A stretch of 64,000 bases of DNA. It comes from Synechococcus sp. KORDI-100. Its GTDB lineage: Bacteria > Cyanobacteriota > Cyanobacteriia > PCC-6307 > Cyanobiaceae. Below are positions 22,210 to 30,879 of this stretch, piece after piece (the stretch's first letter is position 1; each line of letters begins with the position of its first letter). The stretch lies in contig NZ_CP006269.1 of NCBI RefSeq assembly GCF_000737535.1, forward strand, positions 558,001 through 622,000, in the 5' to 3' direction. The translations under genes were made by a program, and so were the position numbers. Under the pieces are notes generated by a model. That model did no database searches, was not told the DNA's origin, and saw only the letters and a list, made by a program, of their open reading frames with translations.

Positions 22210-22860
22210 TCAGGCGTCTTCAACAATGAAGGACTGACCCGCCAGTCCGAAGGGCCGATAAGGATCAAATCCAAGGTCCGGCCGCAGGGACTGCAGATCC
22301 TTCAAGGCGTTGCGGGCACCGGAGCAATCGAAGCGTGTTCCGCAGTGGTAGTACTCGAAGGCCAGGAGCAAACCGCAGGAAAGCTGGGGCTGCAGCCAGC
22401 GCAGGATGGCTCGAACATCACTGAAGGAGTGGCTGCTGATGAAGGCAAAGGCAAGCCGCTCCGGGACGGGGTGCATCGTCTCAGGCTCCTGCGGGCTCCA
22501 CCTCACCACGTCGCGTTGCCCGCGACCGATTCCCGCCCAGTTGCAGCGTTTCTCGAAGGATTTTTTCGACAGCACGGGCGTGTCTGGCTGCCAGCGGGGA
22601 TGAAGATCCCGCGCTGTCTCTGCTGCAGCGATGCGATCGAAGCGTCCGAAGGCCCAGATCCTGCGTTCCTTCGGTTGGGCCTGCAGGGCTCTCCAGGCCA
22701 TCCAAAAGGTGAGAAAGCGCTGGCATCCAAACTCCGCGTAGTCGCCCTCGATTCGATTGAAATGCAGCAGGCGCATGGCTTGCCGGAGAAACAAGGCCGT
22801 GTCTCTGTCATTGCGGCGGCGTTGCTGCAGGCCTGCCAAACCATGGCGCAGTCGTTTCAT
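22210..22860 (-). CDS. TylF/MycF-like methyltransferase, probable surface-glycan modification
   Basis: 216 residues. The segment FNRIEGDYAEFGCQRFLTFWMAWRAL near residues 35-60 resembles the GxYxEFGV start of TylF/MycF-type SAM methyltransferases, followed by RRIWAFGRFDRI in place of the usual FGFDSFEGLP. Later parts (LLLAFEYYHCG near 165) fit an acidic metal/SAM site loosely. The alignment is from memory and the key glycines are partly changed, so activity is uncertain. Its ATG overlaps the stop of the glycosyltransferase-like gene (22857) by 4 bases, making a tight pair. Enzymes of this kind often sit in capsule or O-antigen loci. Confidence 0.45.
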   Translation of the reverse strand: MKRLRHGLAGLQQRRRNDRDTALFLRQAMRLLHFNRIEGDYAEFGCQRFLTFWMAWRALQAQPKERRIWAFGRFDRIAAAETARDLHPRWQPDTPVLSKKSFEKRCNWAGIGRGQRDVVRWSPQEPETMHPVPERLAFAFISSHSFSDVRAILRWLQPQLSCGLLLAFEYYHCGTRFDCSGARNALKDLQSLRPDLGFDPYRPFGLAGQSFIVEDA

Positions 22861-23876
22861 CGCATGGCCGTGCTTGCCGGGACCTGAGCCTGATCGGCAC
22901 GGATCTGCAACAGCAGTTCCAGAGCCTTTTCAAGGGTGGGAGCCCAACCATCGGAGCAGCGCCGGATCAGCCGGGTGTTGGGATAGAAAGGCGACCGATC
23001 GCCATGGTCTGGCCAGGTCGTGACGCTCTCCTTATCCAGCACGACGACACAGGGAATTCCAAGGGCTCCCGCCATGTGTGCCGTCGTGTTGCTGATCGTC
23101 AGCACACGTCGAACAGAGAACACCTGGCCGGCGAAGCCATCCAGGTCCTTGAACTGATCCACCCGGCGAGCCGCCTTCACCGGACGTCCACTGGCCTTGA
23201 CCAACTCGGCCAGCCCGGCACGCCCCTCCTGATACTGCAAGGACTGCACCCGTCCCTGGACGCCCCTGAGAAGCCCCGCCCAGTCCTCGAGCGATGGAAG
23301 ACATTTGTACATCGCTTTCGAGTACCAGGAAATCCCAAGTCCGCCTCGGGGTTTGTCCGATGGGGGCGGCGCTTTTAGCGGCAGGAAGCCGCTGCTGATC
23401 ATCTCCTCGTGTCGGGCATAGAAAAAGGCCAGTTGCTCGTAGGTGGTCCAGGCGGATTCGTTGCCCTGGGGCACCACGTCCGCTGTGCTGATGAAATGCA
23501 CGGCCGGATAACTGCGCTGGAACAACGGAACCAGGCGCGCCTCGGTTTGAACGATCAGCTGGCCGACATCCTCGGCGGCTCTGGCCACGAGGTGGACCAG
23601 TCGCAGCTCATCGCCGAGATCGCGTCTGCGCCCCTCGAGCACAAGGAATTTGACGTGATCGCGCGGCCCTCTCCACGGTCGTCTGCCTGTCGGGCCCTGC
23701 AGTGCGGCGATGCTGTGGAAGGTCTTCCAGGCCTCCTTGTAGTAACCGCATCGCTCCATCTTGTTGGCGGCCTCGGTCATGCTGCGCAGATCCCCTGCGG
23801 CACTGGCCAGGCGGGCTTTCTCCGCCTGCCAGGACAGATTGGCGTAGCGCATGGGATCAAACCCTGTCTGACGCAA
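22857..23876 (-). CDS. heptosyltransferase-like (GT9 superfamily) protein
   Basis: 339 residues. The N-terminal part (SWQAEKARLASAAGDLRSMT, followed by CGYYKEAWKTFHSI) resembles one or two TPR-like helical hairpins. The C-terminal half has the pattern of ADP-heptose/GT9-like domains: GLGISWYS, PSLEDWAGLL, VQSLQYQEG, and the acceptor/donor motif DLDGFAGQVFSVRRVLTISNTTAHMAGALGIPCVVVLD. In many picocyanobacterial TPR-GT proteins this last motif reads D(x)DGFAxLIAxxDLVISVDNTTAHLAGALG. Probably adds a sugar to a surface polysaccharide. It is translationally coupled to the next gene. Confidence 0.6.
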   Translation of the reverse strand: MRQTGFDPMRYANLSWQAEKARLASAAGDLRSMTEAANKMERCGYYKEAWKTFHSIAALQGPTGRRPWRGPRDHVKFLVLEGRRRDLGDELRLVHLVARAAEDVGQLIVQTEARLVPLFQRSYPAVHFISTADVVPQGNESAWTTYEQLAFFYARHEEMISSGFLPLKAPPPSDKPRGGLGISWYSKAMYKCLPSLEDWAGLLRGVQGRVQSLQYQEGRAGLAELVKASGRPVKAARRVDQFKDLDGFAGQVFSVRRVLTISNTTAHMAGALGIPCVVVLDKESVTTWPDHGDRSPFYPNTRLIRRCSDGWAPTLEKALELLLQIRADQAQVPASTAMR

Positions 23877-25676: not shown

Positions 25677-26138
25677 TCAGAGCAGGTCCTCACGGATGCC
25701 TTTCGGACGACTCGCAATGGGTCGGTCCTGCAGCATTTCAAAATCCTCGAAGCTGAAACCCGGTCCGACACAACAGCTCACCAGGCTGTGGCTCCCCTGG
25801 CTGCGTGCGGCCATCCAGACACCGGCCTCAACGACAACCACCGGATTGTTGAGGCCCACGGTGATTTCACGCGAGATGGTGTCCTGGTCGCCGTGCAGGA
25901 AAAGGCTCAGTGGGGCCCCGCTGATGAAGGTCCAGATTTCGTCGCCTCCATGCACACAGTGCCAGCGACTGAGATCCTCCGGTCCAAGCAGGAACAACAC
26001 GGTGGTGATGGCGCTTCGCTGTTCTCCGTCGGGGCGCCGGACGGAGATGCCGCTGCGCTGAACTTCTCGACACCAACCACCCTCTGGATGAGGGGAAAGG
26101 TTCCACGTGGCGATCAGCGTCGTCAGGTTGTCGGTCAT
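25677..26138 (-). CDS. cupin, DUF985 family
   Basis: 153 residues. The DUF985 signature is evident: LIATWNLSPHPEGGWCREVQRS at the start, AITTVLFLLGPEDLSRWHCVHGGDEIWTFISGAPLSLFL in the middle with cupin His and Glu ligands, and SLVSCCVGPGFSFEDFEML at the end. Proteins of this family bind metal or sugar-like ligands in a double-stranded beta-helix; no specific reaction is known. It lies upstream of the acetolactate synthase-like gene and may share its transcript. Confidence 0.82.
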   Translation of the reverse strand: MTDNLTTLIATWNLSPHPEGGWCREVQRSGISVRRPDGEQRSAITTVLFLLGPEDLSRWHCVHGGDEIWTFISGAPLSLFLHGDQDTISREITVGLNNPVVVVEAGVWMAARSQGSHSLVSCCVGPGFSFEDFEMLQDRPIASRPKGIREDLL

Positions 26139-26241: not shown

Positions 26242-26835
26242 CTATGGATTGTCATCCTCCACGGCTTTCAGCAAGACATCGCACATCCAGTTGGCAGGTT
26301 TCGTGGGTCCTATCGATTCAATGAGCAGACAAAGCCGTACAACTAAAAAATTGCCAGGGAAGTTGAGGAACATATCGGGATGTCGATTCGCGAAATACTG
26401 AGGAATGAGTTGGGCTGTCCAAAGGACAGGAAGGGCACCTAGGAATCCAAATTGAAAGCAAATCAAGTTGATCCAATCTGGCAATTGTGATACTGGATAA
26501 TTTGTAAACGGTAGGGCTTCCATACGAGGGAACGACGTCATTTGTGCAATGACAAAGACGGTTAAAATGACAAAAAACTGACGACCGGCAAGATATTGTT
26601 GCGATCGAATTTTGCTGCAGATCAAACGCATCCTGGAACAAGCTTTTGGAGACTCATTCTTCACACCTATTAATTGATCAGTATTTCGATCGGACAAGCT
26701 GATGATCGCGATTTGTGATCCTTCGAGACTACTTAAAAGCAAGAGCGTCAAAACCAGGAGTAGAAATGTGTGCCACAAAGGGCTGCCAAAGACAAGCGTC
26801 AGCGATGACTCGCCAGATAGAATTTCAAACAACAC
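26242..26835 (-). CDS. silicon-transporter-like (SIT-L) membrane protein
   Basis: 197 residues from a GTG at 26835. It has four clear hydrophobic helices (about 20-37, 86-103, 122-146, 161-177). An EGSQ motif lies at 38-41 at the end of the first of these, and a GRQ motif at 84-86 opens the next (GRQFFVILTVFVIAQ). The EGxQ plus GRQ pair in consecutive helices is the defining signature of eukaryotic SIT silicon transporters and five-helix SIT-Ls. The last helix (FLVVRLCLLIESIG) also resembles the SIT pattern as I recall it. A fifth helix is encoded in frame upstream but lacks a standard start (see findings). It flanks modABC divergently in an AT-rich stretch. Substrate is inferred, not shown. 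Confidence 0.6.
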   Translation of the reverse strand: MLFEILSGESSLTLVFGSPLWHTFLLLVLTLLLLSSLEGSQIAIISLSDRNTDQLIGVKNESPKACSRMRLICSKIRSQQYLAGRQFFVILTVFVIAQMTSFPRMEALPFTNYPVSQLPDWINLICFQFGFLGALPVLWTAQLIPQYFANRHPDMFLNFPGNFLVVRLCLLIESIGPTKPANWMCDVLLKAVEDDNP

Positions 26836-27077
26836 AATGTAGACCGTTGCGACAGGTAAAAAGATGCTAAATGCGAATGAAGAAAGTTTTTCATGGTTTT
26901 TTTATGTAGCATAGCTATTTGTTTGCGGCCTGCAATTTTAAATGAATAGCGAAATCGAATCGTTCGCATCCAGTAGAGCTACATTTCAATGAAGTCAAGC
27001 GTTCATCGCATTGTCGCTGATGTCAATCAGTTTTTATTGGCTTGCTTGGAAGAGTTTAAGTCTCCGGAGAATCTGAA

Positions 27078-27884
27078 ATGGTAAAATATTTCACGGCTCA
27101 TTGGCAGTCGTCCCCATATGTTCTGCGGTTCTTGATCGTGGCGACGCTGGCTTTTGTCAGCACCGGAAGTGTTATAGCCACCGACGCGGGGCAGGTTAAT
27201 TTACTTATTTTTGCTGCTTCAAGTTTAACCAACTCGCTTTCGGAGATTGAAGAGAAATTTGAGCGGGATAACGGCGTTGAACTAACCATTAATTACGCAG
27301 GATCGTCAACGCTTGCCAGGCAGATCATCCACGGAGCAGAGGCTGATCTGTTTATTTCTGCCAATCAAGATTGGGCCAACGCTGTTGAGCAACGTCAAGC
27401 GGTTCTGCAGCGACGGGACTGGCTCGGTAATCAATTGGTTGTGATCACGCATCGTGATGCATCGAATCCGCCCCTCAGACTGGCGGATCTTCTGGATCCG
27501 AGTATTCAACGGATTGCGATCGCAGACCCTGAGGGTGTGCCCGCGGGAATCTACGCGAAGGAAATCCTGGTTGCCAAGGGCTTATGGGACCAACTCAAGC
27601 ACAAATTTATTTTTGGTAGCGACGTTCGCCATACCTTGGCCCACGTTGAGAATGGGGGAGCTGATGTTGGTTTTGTGTATTCAACAGATGAACTGATTTC
27701 ACCTGACACGCAAATCAGTTTTGAGATTGAGCATGCGTCGTTGAGTCCGATTAGCTATCCAATGCTTCTTTTGGATCGCTCAGACAGCAAGTTATATTCG
27801 AACCTTTTTTATGATTATTTAAGGTCCGATGCTGCCCTTGAAGTTTTTGAAAAACATGGCTTCTTGGTGAAAGGAAAGTCATGA
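27078..27884 (+). CDS. modA: molybdate ABC transporter, periplasmic binding protein
   Basis: 268 residues. A signal-peptide-like start (VLRFLIVATLAFVSTGSVIATDA) leads into the ModA fold: LLIFAASSLTNSLSEIEEKFE (oxyanion-contacting Ser in AASSL), TINYAGSSTLARQIIHGAEADLFISAN, VVITHRD, IAIADPEGVPAGIYAKE and ADVGFVYSTDE. These are the usual molybdate/tungstate contact regions. It captures molybdate for molybdenum-cofactor enzymes such as nitrate reductase. A GGAGAA ribosome site lies before the ATG. Its TGA overlaps the modB start by 4 bases. Codon use and base composition are visibly AT-richer than flanking core genes. Confidence 0.93.
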   Translation: MVKYFTAHWQSSPYVLRFLIVATLAFVSTGSVIATDAGQVNLLIFAASSLTNSLSEIEEKFERDNGVELTINYAGSSTLARQIIHGAEADLFISANQDWANAVEQRQAVLQRRDWLGNQLVVITHRDASNPPLRLADLLDPSIQRIAIADPEGVPAGIYAKEILVAKGLWDQLKHKFIFGSDVRHTLAHVENGGADVGFVYSTDELISPDTQISFEIEHASLSPISYPMLLLDRSDSKLYSNLFYDYLRSDAALEVFEKHGFLVKGKS

Positions 27885-28570
27885 TTATCTTGGCCATCGA
27901 TGTCACAGCAGTCCGTCTCAGTCTGCAGGTGGCGCTGACAGCAGTTCTTGTCAGCCTTCCCAGTGCCATTGCATTCGGTTATCTCCTGGCTAAACATCGT
28001 TTCAGGGGAAAATTTATTTTGCAAAATCTCATTGATCTCCCCCTGGTCCTTCCTCCTGTGGTGACTGGATATTGTCTGCTGGTTGTTCTGGGGCCCAAAG
28101 GGCCGGTTGGTTCTTTCCTTGAAACAACATTCCACCTCAGGCTCTCGTTCAACTGGTTTGGAGCTGCTCTGGCCTCAGCAGTGGTCAGCTATCCCTTGAT
28201 GGTTCGGTCGATCCGTAGTGCCTTCCTCTCCATTGATCCACGCCTGGAACTGGTGTCTCAGACCCTTGGAGTTCCACCCTGGAGAACATTCCTCCGTATT
28301 TCGTTGCCTCTTTCTGCCAATGGCATCATTGCTGGCTGCCTCTTGGCATTTGCTCGAAGTATTGGTGAGTTTGGTGCGACGATCATGATTGCAGGAGATA
28401 TTCCAGGACAAACAAGAACCATTCCCCTGGCGATTTATAGCTTGTCGAACACCATTGGTGGTATTGAAAGTGGTTGGCCTCTTGTGTTGATTGCTGTTTT
28501 GCTGTCATCGCTATCCTTGATTTTAGGAGAGCTGCTTGAGCGACAAAGCGGGAAATATGAGCATACTTGA
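27881..28570 (+). CDS. modB: molybdate ABC transporter, permease
   Basis: 229 residues, with about five or six hydrophobic helices. The EAA-loop region that contacts the ATPase is evident in SQTLGVPPWRTFLRISLPLSANGIIAGCLLAFARSIGEFGATIM, near residues 125-170, which is the ModB/CysT signature. LPLVLPPVVTGYCLLVVLG near residue 50 is also typical. The start overlaps modA and its 3' end overlaps modC by 14 bases, so the three form one translationally coupled operon. Confidence 0.92.
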   Translation: MIILAIDVTAVRLSLQVALTAVLVSLPSAIAFGYLLAKHRFRGKFILQNLIDLPLVLPPVVTGYCLLVVLGPKGPVGSFLETTFHLRLSFNWFGAALASAVVSYPLMVRSIRSAFLSIDPRLELVSQTLGVPPWRTFLRISLPLSANGIIAGCLLAFARSIGEFGATIMIAGDIPGQTRTIPLAIYSLSNTIGGIESGWPLVLIAVLLSSLSLILGELLERQSGKYEHT

Positions 28571-29630
28571 GGTCAGCTTTAAGCATCGCTACGCATCAGG
28601 TTTTACCCTTGATGTTGATTTTGCTATCGACAGTAAAATCACATCTATTTTTGGCTCCTCTGGAAGTGGAAAGACAACAATTTTGGCGATGATTGCGGGG
28701 CTCAGGGTTCCTGAGCAGGGGACGATTGTTTTGAATGATCGCGTTCTATTTGATCACTCTTCGAGGATTAATGTGCCAATTCATCAAAGAAGGATTGGTG
28801 TTATTTTTCAGGATCATCTACTGTTTCCGCATTTGAATGTCGAGAATAATTTGTTGTATGGATTTCATGGTGGCAGGACTGCCTCGGTGCGCTCTGATGT
28901 CGAGCGTGTCTGTGATGTGCTGGAAATTGGTCATCTCTTAGGGCGTTATCCCAAGACGTTGTCTGGTGGTGAGTGCCAGAGGGTTGCCATCGGTCGAACG
29001 TTGCTCAGCGGTCCGGAAGCCCTGTTGATGGATGAACCCTTGGCCAGTCTTGATGATCGATTGAGGGATTCGATTCTCAAGTATCTGGACAGAATTATTG
29101 AAGAGTGGAATATTCCGGCAATCTTTATCAGCCATAACCAGTCATTGGTTCAGCGCTTTTCGAGCCACACAATTGTTGTAGACCAAGGTCGAGTGTTGTC
29201 TTCGGGGTTAACGTCCAGCACGATTGAAGCCTATGGCCCTGACATTTGGAAGTCGGCTAAGGGGCCGATGAATTGGCTCAAAATTGATTCTTTTGAAAAG
29301 CATGATGGTTTTATGTTTGCGATCGTTTTTGGTCAAAAAATTCAATTACCAGGCTTCCATGATCATCTTGGCGATAAAATGTATATCCAATTTTTTGCTA
29401 ACGATGTTGTTCTCGCTAAAGATCCTTTGATGAATATCAGCACAAGAAATCACCTCCATGGTGATGTTGTGCGCTTCGTTGAACAAGCGTCCCATGTGCT
29501 TGTCGGCGTTGATATCGGCAGCATTGTCTGGGCAAAAATAACCCTGGAAGCGAAGCGGGAACTCAACCTGGAGATAGGCGTCCCCATCGTTCTTCTTGTC
29601 AAGACACAGGCCTTGGACTGTGTGGGATAA
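28557..29630 (+). CDS. modC: molybdate ABC transporter, ATP-binding protein
   Basis: 357 residues from the ATG at 28557, which lies inside the end of modB. Walker A is GSSGSGKTTI, the Q-loop IFQDHLLFPH, the ABC signature LSGGECQRVAIGRTLL, Walker B ALLMDEPLASLDD and the H-loop ISHN. After residue 230 a TOBE/Mop-like domain (GDVVRFVEQASHVLVGVDIGSIVWAKIT) binds molybdate and may damp transport. It powers uptake through ModB. Gene order modABC with overlaps is standard for ModABC importers. Confidence 0.93.
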   Translation: MSILEVSFKHRYASGFTLDVDFAIDSKITSIFGSSGSGKTTILAMIAGLRVPEQGTIVLNDRVLFDHSSRINVPIHQRRIGVIFQDHLLFPHLNVENNLLYGFHGGRTASVRSDVERVCDVLEIGHLLGRYPKTLSGGECQRVAIGRTLLSGPEALLMDEPLASLDDRLRDSILKYLDRIIEEWNIPAIFISHNQSLVQRFSSHTIVVDQGRVLSSGLTSSTIEAYGPDIWKSAKGPMNWLKIDSFEKHDGFMFAIVFGQKIQLPGFHDHLGDKMYIQFFANDVVLAKDPLMNISTRNHLHGDVVRFVEQASHVLVGVDIGSIVWAKITLEAKRELNLEIGVPIVLLVKTQALDCVG

Positions 29631-29799: not shown

Positions 29800-30879
29800 T
29801 CAACCGATTGCAGGTGCCTGCAGAGCCACAGGGGTGGACTCAGCGGCAGCCAGGTCGAGGGGGAAGTTGTGAGCGTTGCGCTCGTGCATCACTTCCATGC
29901 CGAGGTTGGCGCGGTTCAGCACATCAGCCCAGGTGTTCAGGACGCGGCCCTGACCATCAAGGATGGACTGGTTGAAGTTGAAACCGTTCAGGTTGAAGGC
30001 CATGGTGGACACGCCGAGGGCGGTGAACCAGATGCCCACAACCGGCCAGGCAGCCAGGAAGAAGTGGAGGCTGCGGCTGTTGTTGAAGGATGCGTATTGG
30101 AAGATCAGGCGACCGAAGTAACCGTGGGCAGCCACGATGTTGTAGGTCTCTTCCTCTTGGCCGAACTTGTAGCCGTAGTTCTGGGACTCGGTCTCGGTGG
30201 TTTCACGCACCAGGGATGAGGTCACCAGTGAACCGTGCATGGCGGAGAACAGGGATCCACCGAAGACACCTGCGACGCCCATCATGTGGAAGGGGTGCAT
30301 CAGGATGTTGTGCTCGGCCTGGAACACCAGCATGAAGTTGAAGGTGCCAGAGATGCCCAGGGGCATGCCGTCAGAGAAGGAACCCTGACCGAAGGGGTAC
30401 ACCAGGAACACGGCGGAGGCAGCAGCCACAGGAGCGCTGTAGGCAACGCAGATCCAGGGGCGCATGCCGAGGCGGTAGGAGAGTTCCCACTCGCGGCCCA
30501 TGTAGCAGAAGATGCCGATCAGGAAGTGGAAGACAACCAGCTGGTAGGGGCCGCCGTTGTACAGCCACTCATCGAGGGAAGCAGCTTCCCAGATGGGGTA
30601 GAAGTGCAGGCCGATGGCGTTGGAGGACGGAACAACAGCACCGGAGATGATGTTGTTGCCGTAGATCAGAGAACCAGCGACAGGCTCACGGATGCCGTCA
30701 ATGTCGACCGGAGGTGCGGCGACGAAGGCAACGATGAAGCAGATGGTGGCAGCCAGCAGGGTGGGAATCATCAGCACACCGAACCAACCGACGTACAGAC
30801 GGTTGTTGGTGGAGGTGACCCACTCGCAGAAGGCTTGCCAGCTGGTAGCGCCGGAGCGCTGCTGGAGGGTGGTGGTCAT
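29800..30879 (-). CDS. psbA: photosystem II D1 protein, high-light (D1:2) type
   Basis: 359 residues with the five-helix D1 core. Tyr-Z and His ligands are in the conserved region and the C-terminus ends [22 protein letters not shown], where processing after Ala344 releases the mature end. Residue 130 is Glu (CYMGREWE), the D1:2 form that cyanobacteria express under high light, rather than Gln of D1:1. It carries the reaction-centre chlorophylls and the manganese ligands and is the fastest-turning-over photosystem II subunit. It converges on modC across a terminator and is preceded by a short palindromic leader at 30922-30938. Confidence 0.99.

Follow-up and report, generated by a model that had tools for sequence, protein, structure and literature searches.

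SITs are described as Na+-coupled transporters of silicic acid (PMC5100055, PMC4742977), and a full SIT has ten helices with two EGxQ-GRQ motif pairs. A further SIT motif, xQxxxQx, lies in helix 4, and a glutamate in the last helix is conserved in eukaryotic SITs (PMC5100055). For the shorter SIT-Ls, Marron et al. (2016, PMC5100055) state five helices. An earlier proposal gave SITs a LeuT-like inverted repeat and had the SIT-L act as a homodimer (PMC4742977).

Two Synechococcus strains were reported to have SIT-Ls by Marron et al. (2016, PMC5100055), who took the KORDI-100 protein as a query; later work identifies the strains as CC9616 and KORDI-100 (PMC10316375, PMC12016540). A SIT-L of Prochlorococcus AG-412-I05 has also been reported (PMC12016540). 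Since marine Synechococcus strains lacking a SIT-L accumulate silicon too (PMC12016540, PMC10316375), the SIT-L can be at most one of the silicon routes.

A Synechococcus PCC 7002 protein called SySIT-L shares the name and the proposed role with these proteins, and cells deleted for it contained less silicon (PMC12506029). By its own results it is aquaporin-like and similar to soybean GmNIP2-2 and, going by the text of that report, it belongs to a different protein family; it is therefore uninformative on the SIT family. The same report calls it “highly similar” to diatom SITs in its discussion and aquaporin-like in its results (PMC12506029). With an aquaporin relative carrying it, the family name SIT-L needs to be used with care.

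Results

A SIT-L gene in Synechococcus sp. KORDI-100

We analyzed a stretch of 64,000 nucleotides of the KORDI-100 genome, called the window below. The SIT-L gene and its motifs are located as follows:

26242..26835, minus strand: SIT-L ORF, 197 aa, GTG start, four predicted helices, Pfam match
26713..26724, minus strand: EGSQ motif, residues 38-41 of the ORF translation
26578..26586, minus strand: GRQ motif, residues 84-86 of the ORF translation
26398..26412, minus strand: QLIPQ, residues 142-146, the SIT xQxxxQx motif, which aligns with the CNNM/CorB GExxPK signature

The initial annotation had read this ORF as a bacterial SIT-L with EGSQ and GRQ in consecutive hydrophobic helices. The ORF is real, and both motifs occur once each at the residues given: on a Kyte-Doolittle scale, EGSQ lies just after a hydrophobic segment (residues 19-37) and GRQ opens another (82-100). 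Searching with SIT-family profiles, a check named in that annotation, confirmed the identity: the ORF matches the Pfam family Silic_transp (PF03842) at 44.1 bits (cut-off 26.8; E 1.2e-11); the sole other row of the Pfam search had E 2.6. In NCBIfam only TIGR00811 (“sit”) was found, at residues 24-190 and with 37.1 bits against a cut-off of 1047.6. The window protein thus matches one part of the diatom SIT profiles PF03842 and TIGR00811, and it has at most five hydrophobic segments and one motif pair where the full SIT has ten helices and two. The suggestion that its final helix also resembles SITs holds in part: the best Pfam stretch stops at residue 149, and the TIGR00811 match that runs on to residue 190 is far below its cut-off.

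Motif pairs as short as these could arise by chance in a membrane protein unrelated to SITs, and a looser version of the pair is indeed seen in some unrelated frames of the relatives' loci. The strict pair, defined as EGxQ followed by GRQ 20-80 residues on, occurs in one of the 244 stop-to-stop frames of at least 100 aa in the window. The profile match already refutes a chance origin, and with GRQ conserved in all six and EGxQ in five of the six aligned sequences we regard such an origin as hardly credible. Membership of the ORF in the SIT-L family is, at the level of sequence, supported.

The gene is very probably the KORDI-100 SIT-L of Marron et al. (2016, PMC5100055), which belongs to the same family and likewise has one EGxQ-GRQ pair. 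In the window's genus, 2 of 34 genomes carry a SIT-L, namely the window's own (G000) and G267. This fits the two published strains, and we therefore treat the gene as already known; the novelty implied by the initial annotation is not upheld, since the protein has been in print since 2016 (PMC5100055). G267 may be strain CC9616. What the present analysis adds is the shifted start, the mod island and the possible CNNM resemblance described below. The text of PMC5100055 does not mention molybdate (search term “molybd”), and the sections of it that we drew on contain no mention of an out-of-frame start.

Relatives of the KORDI-100 SIT-L

We searched genomes of the window's family and of its phylum, two samples that overlap. 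PF03842 was matched in 3 of 400 family genomes and in 1 of 386 phylum genomes, the latter being the window's own. A search with the SIT-L alignment found a member in one of five genomes of the genus of G120, whose SIT-L translation is identical to that of Prochlorococcus AG-412-I05. Outside the cyanobacteria, 2 of 201 genomes from the family of a Methylococcaceae bin matched PF03842; these two Methylococcaceae-family members have 514 and 511 aa. A further member, of 529 aa, is on a plasmid of Rhodococcus opacus B4. Identity to the window protein is 88% for G267, 70% for Prochlorococcus and 40% for Methylococcaceae.

All six aligned SIT-Ls match PF03842. EGxQ and GRQ are exact in four of the five relatives, while the one from Rhodococcus has EAAH with GRQ and, in the alignment, lacks the glutamate of the last helix. 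The SIT-Ls at L022:985-2529 and L056:1147-2682 are extended at the N terminus and have a further ∼210 aa at the C terminus; for L022, the C-terminal part matched no Pfam family above cut-off, and the Rhodococcus protein is similar in length.

A contig search with a single SIT-L protein as query confirmed no relative, whereas two were found when it was repeated with the SIT-L alignment. No relative was confirmed on viral contigs in three scans or found in phage records, and a sequence search of the PDB with the window protein gave no match up to E 1.

The start of the gene is shifted

Upstream of the annotated GTG, two features bear on where translation starts:

26836..26901, minus strand: in-frame open stretch with no standard start codon; encodes the helix that comes first in the relatives
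26892..26894, minus strand: ATG aligned with the G267 start, out of frame with the SIT-L; its own frame has 31 codons

The reading frame is open from 26901 and, taken from there, comprises 219 residues with five hydrophobic segments. The five helices that Marron et al. state (PMC5100055) would be reached only in this open frame; the 197-aa ORF with its standard start has four predicted ones. No in-frame ATG, GTG or TTG was found upstream of the GTG within the open frame. Compared with G267, a single base is lacking from the window a little way past the ATG, so that the frame of this ATG stops after 31 codons. In G120, an ATG near the corresponding place is likewise out of frame, and an in-frame GTG is present upstream.

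Because no in-frame standard start includes helix 1, the gene may be impaired. It could be a SIT-L by descent that has been damaged in KORDI-100, the loss of one base after the ATG having removed helix 1 and left either a short protein made from the GTG or none; the frameshift against the intact G267 gene, the 31-codon frame and the four-helix ORF are as one would expect of such a lesion. Set against this, the remaining frame of 219 codons is uninterrupted and shares 88% identity with the G267 relative. Moreover, 454 sequencing tends to produce length errors of one base. It is the method by which KORDI-100 was sequenced (PMC7522525). The out-of-frame start may thus be either a sequencing error or a real lesion, and we consider damage a serious possibility that we nonetheless doubt on balance.

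The SIT-L gene lies in a low-GC island with modABC

The neighborhood of the gene contains a molybdate transport system between flanks of different base composition:

25677..26138, minus strand: Cupin_5 protein, island flank
27078..27884, plus strand: modA, molybdate-binding protein, NCBIfam cut-off passed, in the same low-GC island as the SIT-L
27881..28570, plus strand: modB, molybdate permease, NCBIfam cut-off passed
28560..29630, plus strand: modC, molybdate ATPase, NCBIfam cut-off passed
29800..30879, minus strand: psbA (photosystem II D1), second flank, identified by eye

GC content is 0.44 for the SIT-L gene, 0.38 for the gap, 0.48 for modA, 0.50 for modB and 0.46 for modC, against 0.60-0.61 for the flanking cupin gene, psbA and an acetolactate-synthase-like gene (named by eye). 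The last of these adjoins a 339-aa ORF (22857-23876, minus strand) for which Pfam gave nothing up to E 1.

Of the 400 family genomes, 34 have a ModA match, and G000 and G267 are the only members of the window's genus among them; the 34 genus genomes are seemingly drawn from the same 400, with 20 named as lacking a ModA match and the full 34 likely covered. The ModA of G267 is 76% identical to the query, compared with 29-37% for the other 32 matches. The G267 island keeps the same gene order, with a methyltransferase, two molybdenum-storage-like proteins and an ABC-2 system in between. The two storage-like proteins are adjacent (L004:11053-12728) and match PDB chains of the molybdenum storage protein with best E values of 6.6e-86 and 1.8e-64. 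In the open-licence papers searched, this protein and cyanobacteria came up together in a single paper, each mentioned once. No match to this protein was found in the window's genome, and among the 34 genus genomes it was found in two, G267 and, at only 1.1e-4, G261.

The Prochlorococcus AG-412-I05 SIT-L (PMC12016540), 70% identical to that of the window, also adjoins psbA and a mod gene, but its locus lacks modA, modB and the beginning of modC, whereas the window has the full modABC. The modC remnant of G120 (L005:6541-7371) begins at position 63 of the 137-position ABC profile, lacks the first part of the ATPase domain and overlaps with its start the SIT-L ORF at the 5′ end of the latter. 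It seems that a deletion took out modA, modB and part of modC. We read SIT-L and modABC as having been acquired together in a single island, parts of which decay while the SIT-L is kept.

This linkage invites another explanation, in which the protein is a SIT-family member that transports some other substrate, either small and neutral or an oxyanion, or else works for the adjacent molybdate system. The two genus genomes with a SIT-L are the same two that have modA, and in G267 the two molybdenum-storage-like proteins sit between the SIT-L and the mod genes. Against this stands the Prochlorococcus locus, where the SIT-L is retained beside a modC whose ATPase domain lacks its first part and where the genome (G120, 74% complete) is not among the modA matches listed, in a search that names only some of the genomes covered. 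Furthermore, the SIT-L neighborhoods of Rhodococcus and Methylococcaceae contain no molybdate genes by deposited annotation or by eye, one of these distant neighborhoods ending at a contig end ∼1 kb from the gene. The co-occurrence of SIT-L and modA may also reflect a single event, because it involves only two genomes of one genus. Since the SIT-L outlasts most of modABC in Prochlorococcus and the distant neighborhoods are free of mod genes, we set aside a working part in molybdate uptake, and consider this explanation as a whole improbable.

A possible relationship to the CNNM/CorB magnesium transporters

In the Pfam search with the Rhodococcus SIT-L, CNNM (PF01595) appeared as the second family, with E 5.9e-4 when the full-length protein was the query and 8.1e-5 when its membrane domain was. 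Weak Pfam matches of the same domain reach E 0.002 (PRRSV_2b), and the CNNM match is therefore not overwhelming. Two of the six SIT-Ls match CNNM up to E 10, the second being that of Prochlorococcus (E ∼7); the window protein gave no match to PF01595 up to E 10, and the best SIT-L score of 22.8 bits is below the Pfam cut-off of 28.4. In the reverse direction, none of 12 CNNM proteins matched PF03842, even at E 10.

Profile-profile comparison with hhalign was performed against 30 CNNM domains taken from the window's relatives. With five SIT-Ls, we obtained a local P of 5.1e-4 (probability 31%), with another setting 4.6e-4 (14%), and after removal of gap columns 1.7e-3 (score 27.8, probability 15%). 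In the controls for this last comparison, none of 300 block shuffles reached 27.8 (maximum 23.8), reversed profiles scored 13.1 and 13.6, and 37 reversed and rotated profiles at most 13.9. With six SIT-Ls, P was 3.3e-4 (score 33.3, probability 38%); 200 shuffles of the SIT-L profile gave a maximum of 24.9, and the decoys, drawn from two unrelated membrane families only, scored 13.9 (30 BPD permease domains) and 9.9 (30 EamA domains).

The resulting alignment of 117 columns keeps three motif regions in order along three helices: LEGSQIAI is paired with FSGSEIAV, the GRQ region lies against the presumed start of CNNM helix 2, and AQLIPQYFANRHP is paired with GELVPKRIALNHP. In MtCorB, serines, Gly110 and Glu111 are Mg2+ ligands, and in the surroundings of the pi-helix Glu111, Ile112 and Pro114 are invariant and Lys115 is conserved (PMC8242095). 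In the hhalign register, all six SIT-Ls have Gln where CNNM has the Glu, share the Pro and again have Gln in place of the Lys, so that the Mg-binding Glu and the Lys of the following Pro-Lys are absent from every one of them. The CBS and CorC_HlyC domains of CNNM/CorB proteins are unmatched in the SIT-L.

A PDB search with a five-sequence SIT-L profile found nothing up to E 10. For the Rhodococcus domain, no CNNM/CorB protein was among the 30 PDB matches listed; its matches to cytochrome oxidase and DegS (best E 0.053) were judged to be chance. AlphaFold2 models from three sequences had mean pLDDT values of 46.2 and 39.2, too low for a comparison of folds. A link between silicon transporters and CNNM was not found in the open-licence papers searched; for DUF21 and silicon, we found only open-licence papers that, judged by titles and the openings of their abstracts, seem unrelated.

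The resemblance of SIT-L helices 2-4 to the CNNM/CorB (DUF21) Mg2+ transporter domain is suggestive only. We give nearly even chances to the wider idea that the whole SIT/SIT-L family descends from CNNM/CorB or shares its core. SIT helices 2-4 would then correspond to CNNM helices 1-3 and xQxxxQx to the pi-helix GExxPK, its Glu and Lys both replaced by Gln, a cation site would have become a site for uncharged Si(OH)4, and the LeuT-like model would be replaced.

Discussion

We favor, with some but by no means full confidence, the view that this is the gene of a five-helix bacterial SIT-L and that its product is most likely a membrane transporter of silicic acid, with two copies per pathway and a CNNM/CorB-like polar site. 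According to this model, the SIT-L gene would arrive together with modABC as one low-GC island, and two copies of the protein would form a dimeric pathway for uncharged silicic acid. The polar site between the helices would be lined by EGxQ, which closes helix 2, by GRQ, which opens helix 3, and by QxxPQ of helix 4; it may be built like the CNNM/CorB ion site, with glutamine in place of the charged residues suiting an uncharged substrate. Coupling to Na+ would be carried over from the diatom SITs. Family membership, motifs, island and altered start can be read directly from the DNA, while we infer silicic acid transport, its direction, the dimer, the coupling and the fold.

Because of the start problem, KORDI-100 is perhaps the wrong strain in which to test the SIT-L, and the strain represented by G267 would be the better choice. 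If the link to CNNM holds, it would provide a structural template for silicon transporters and name residues to mutate. For silicon uptake by picocyanobacteria, the strains with a SIT-L offer a natural test case.
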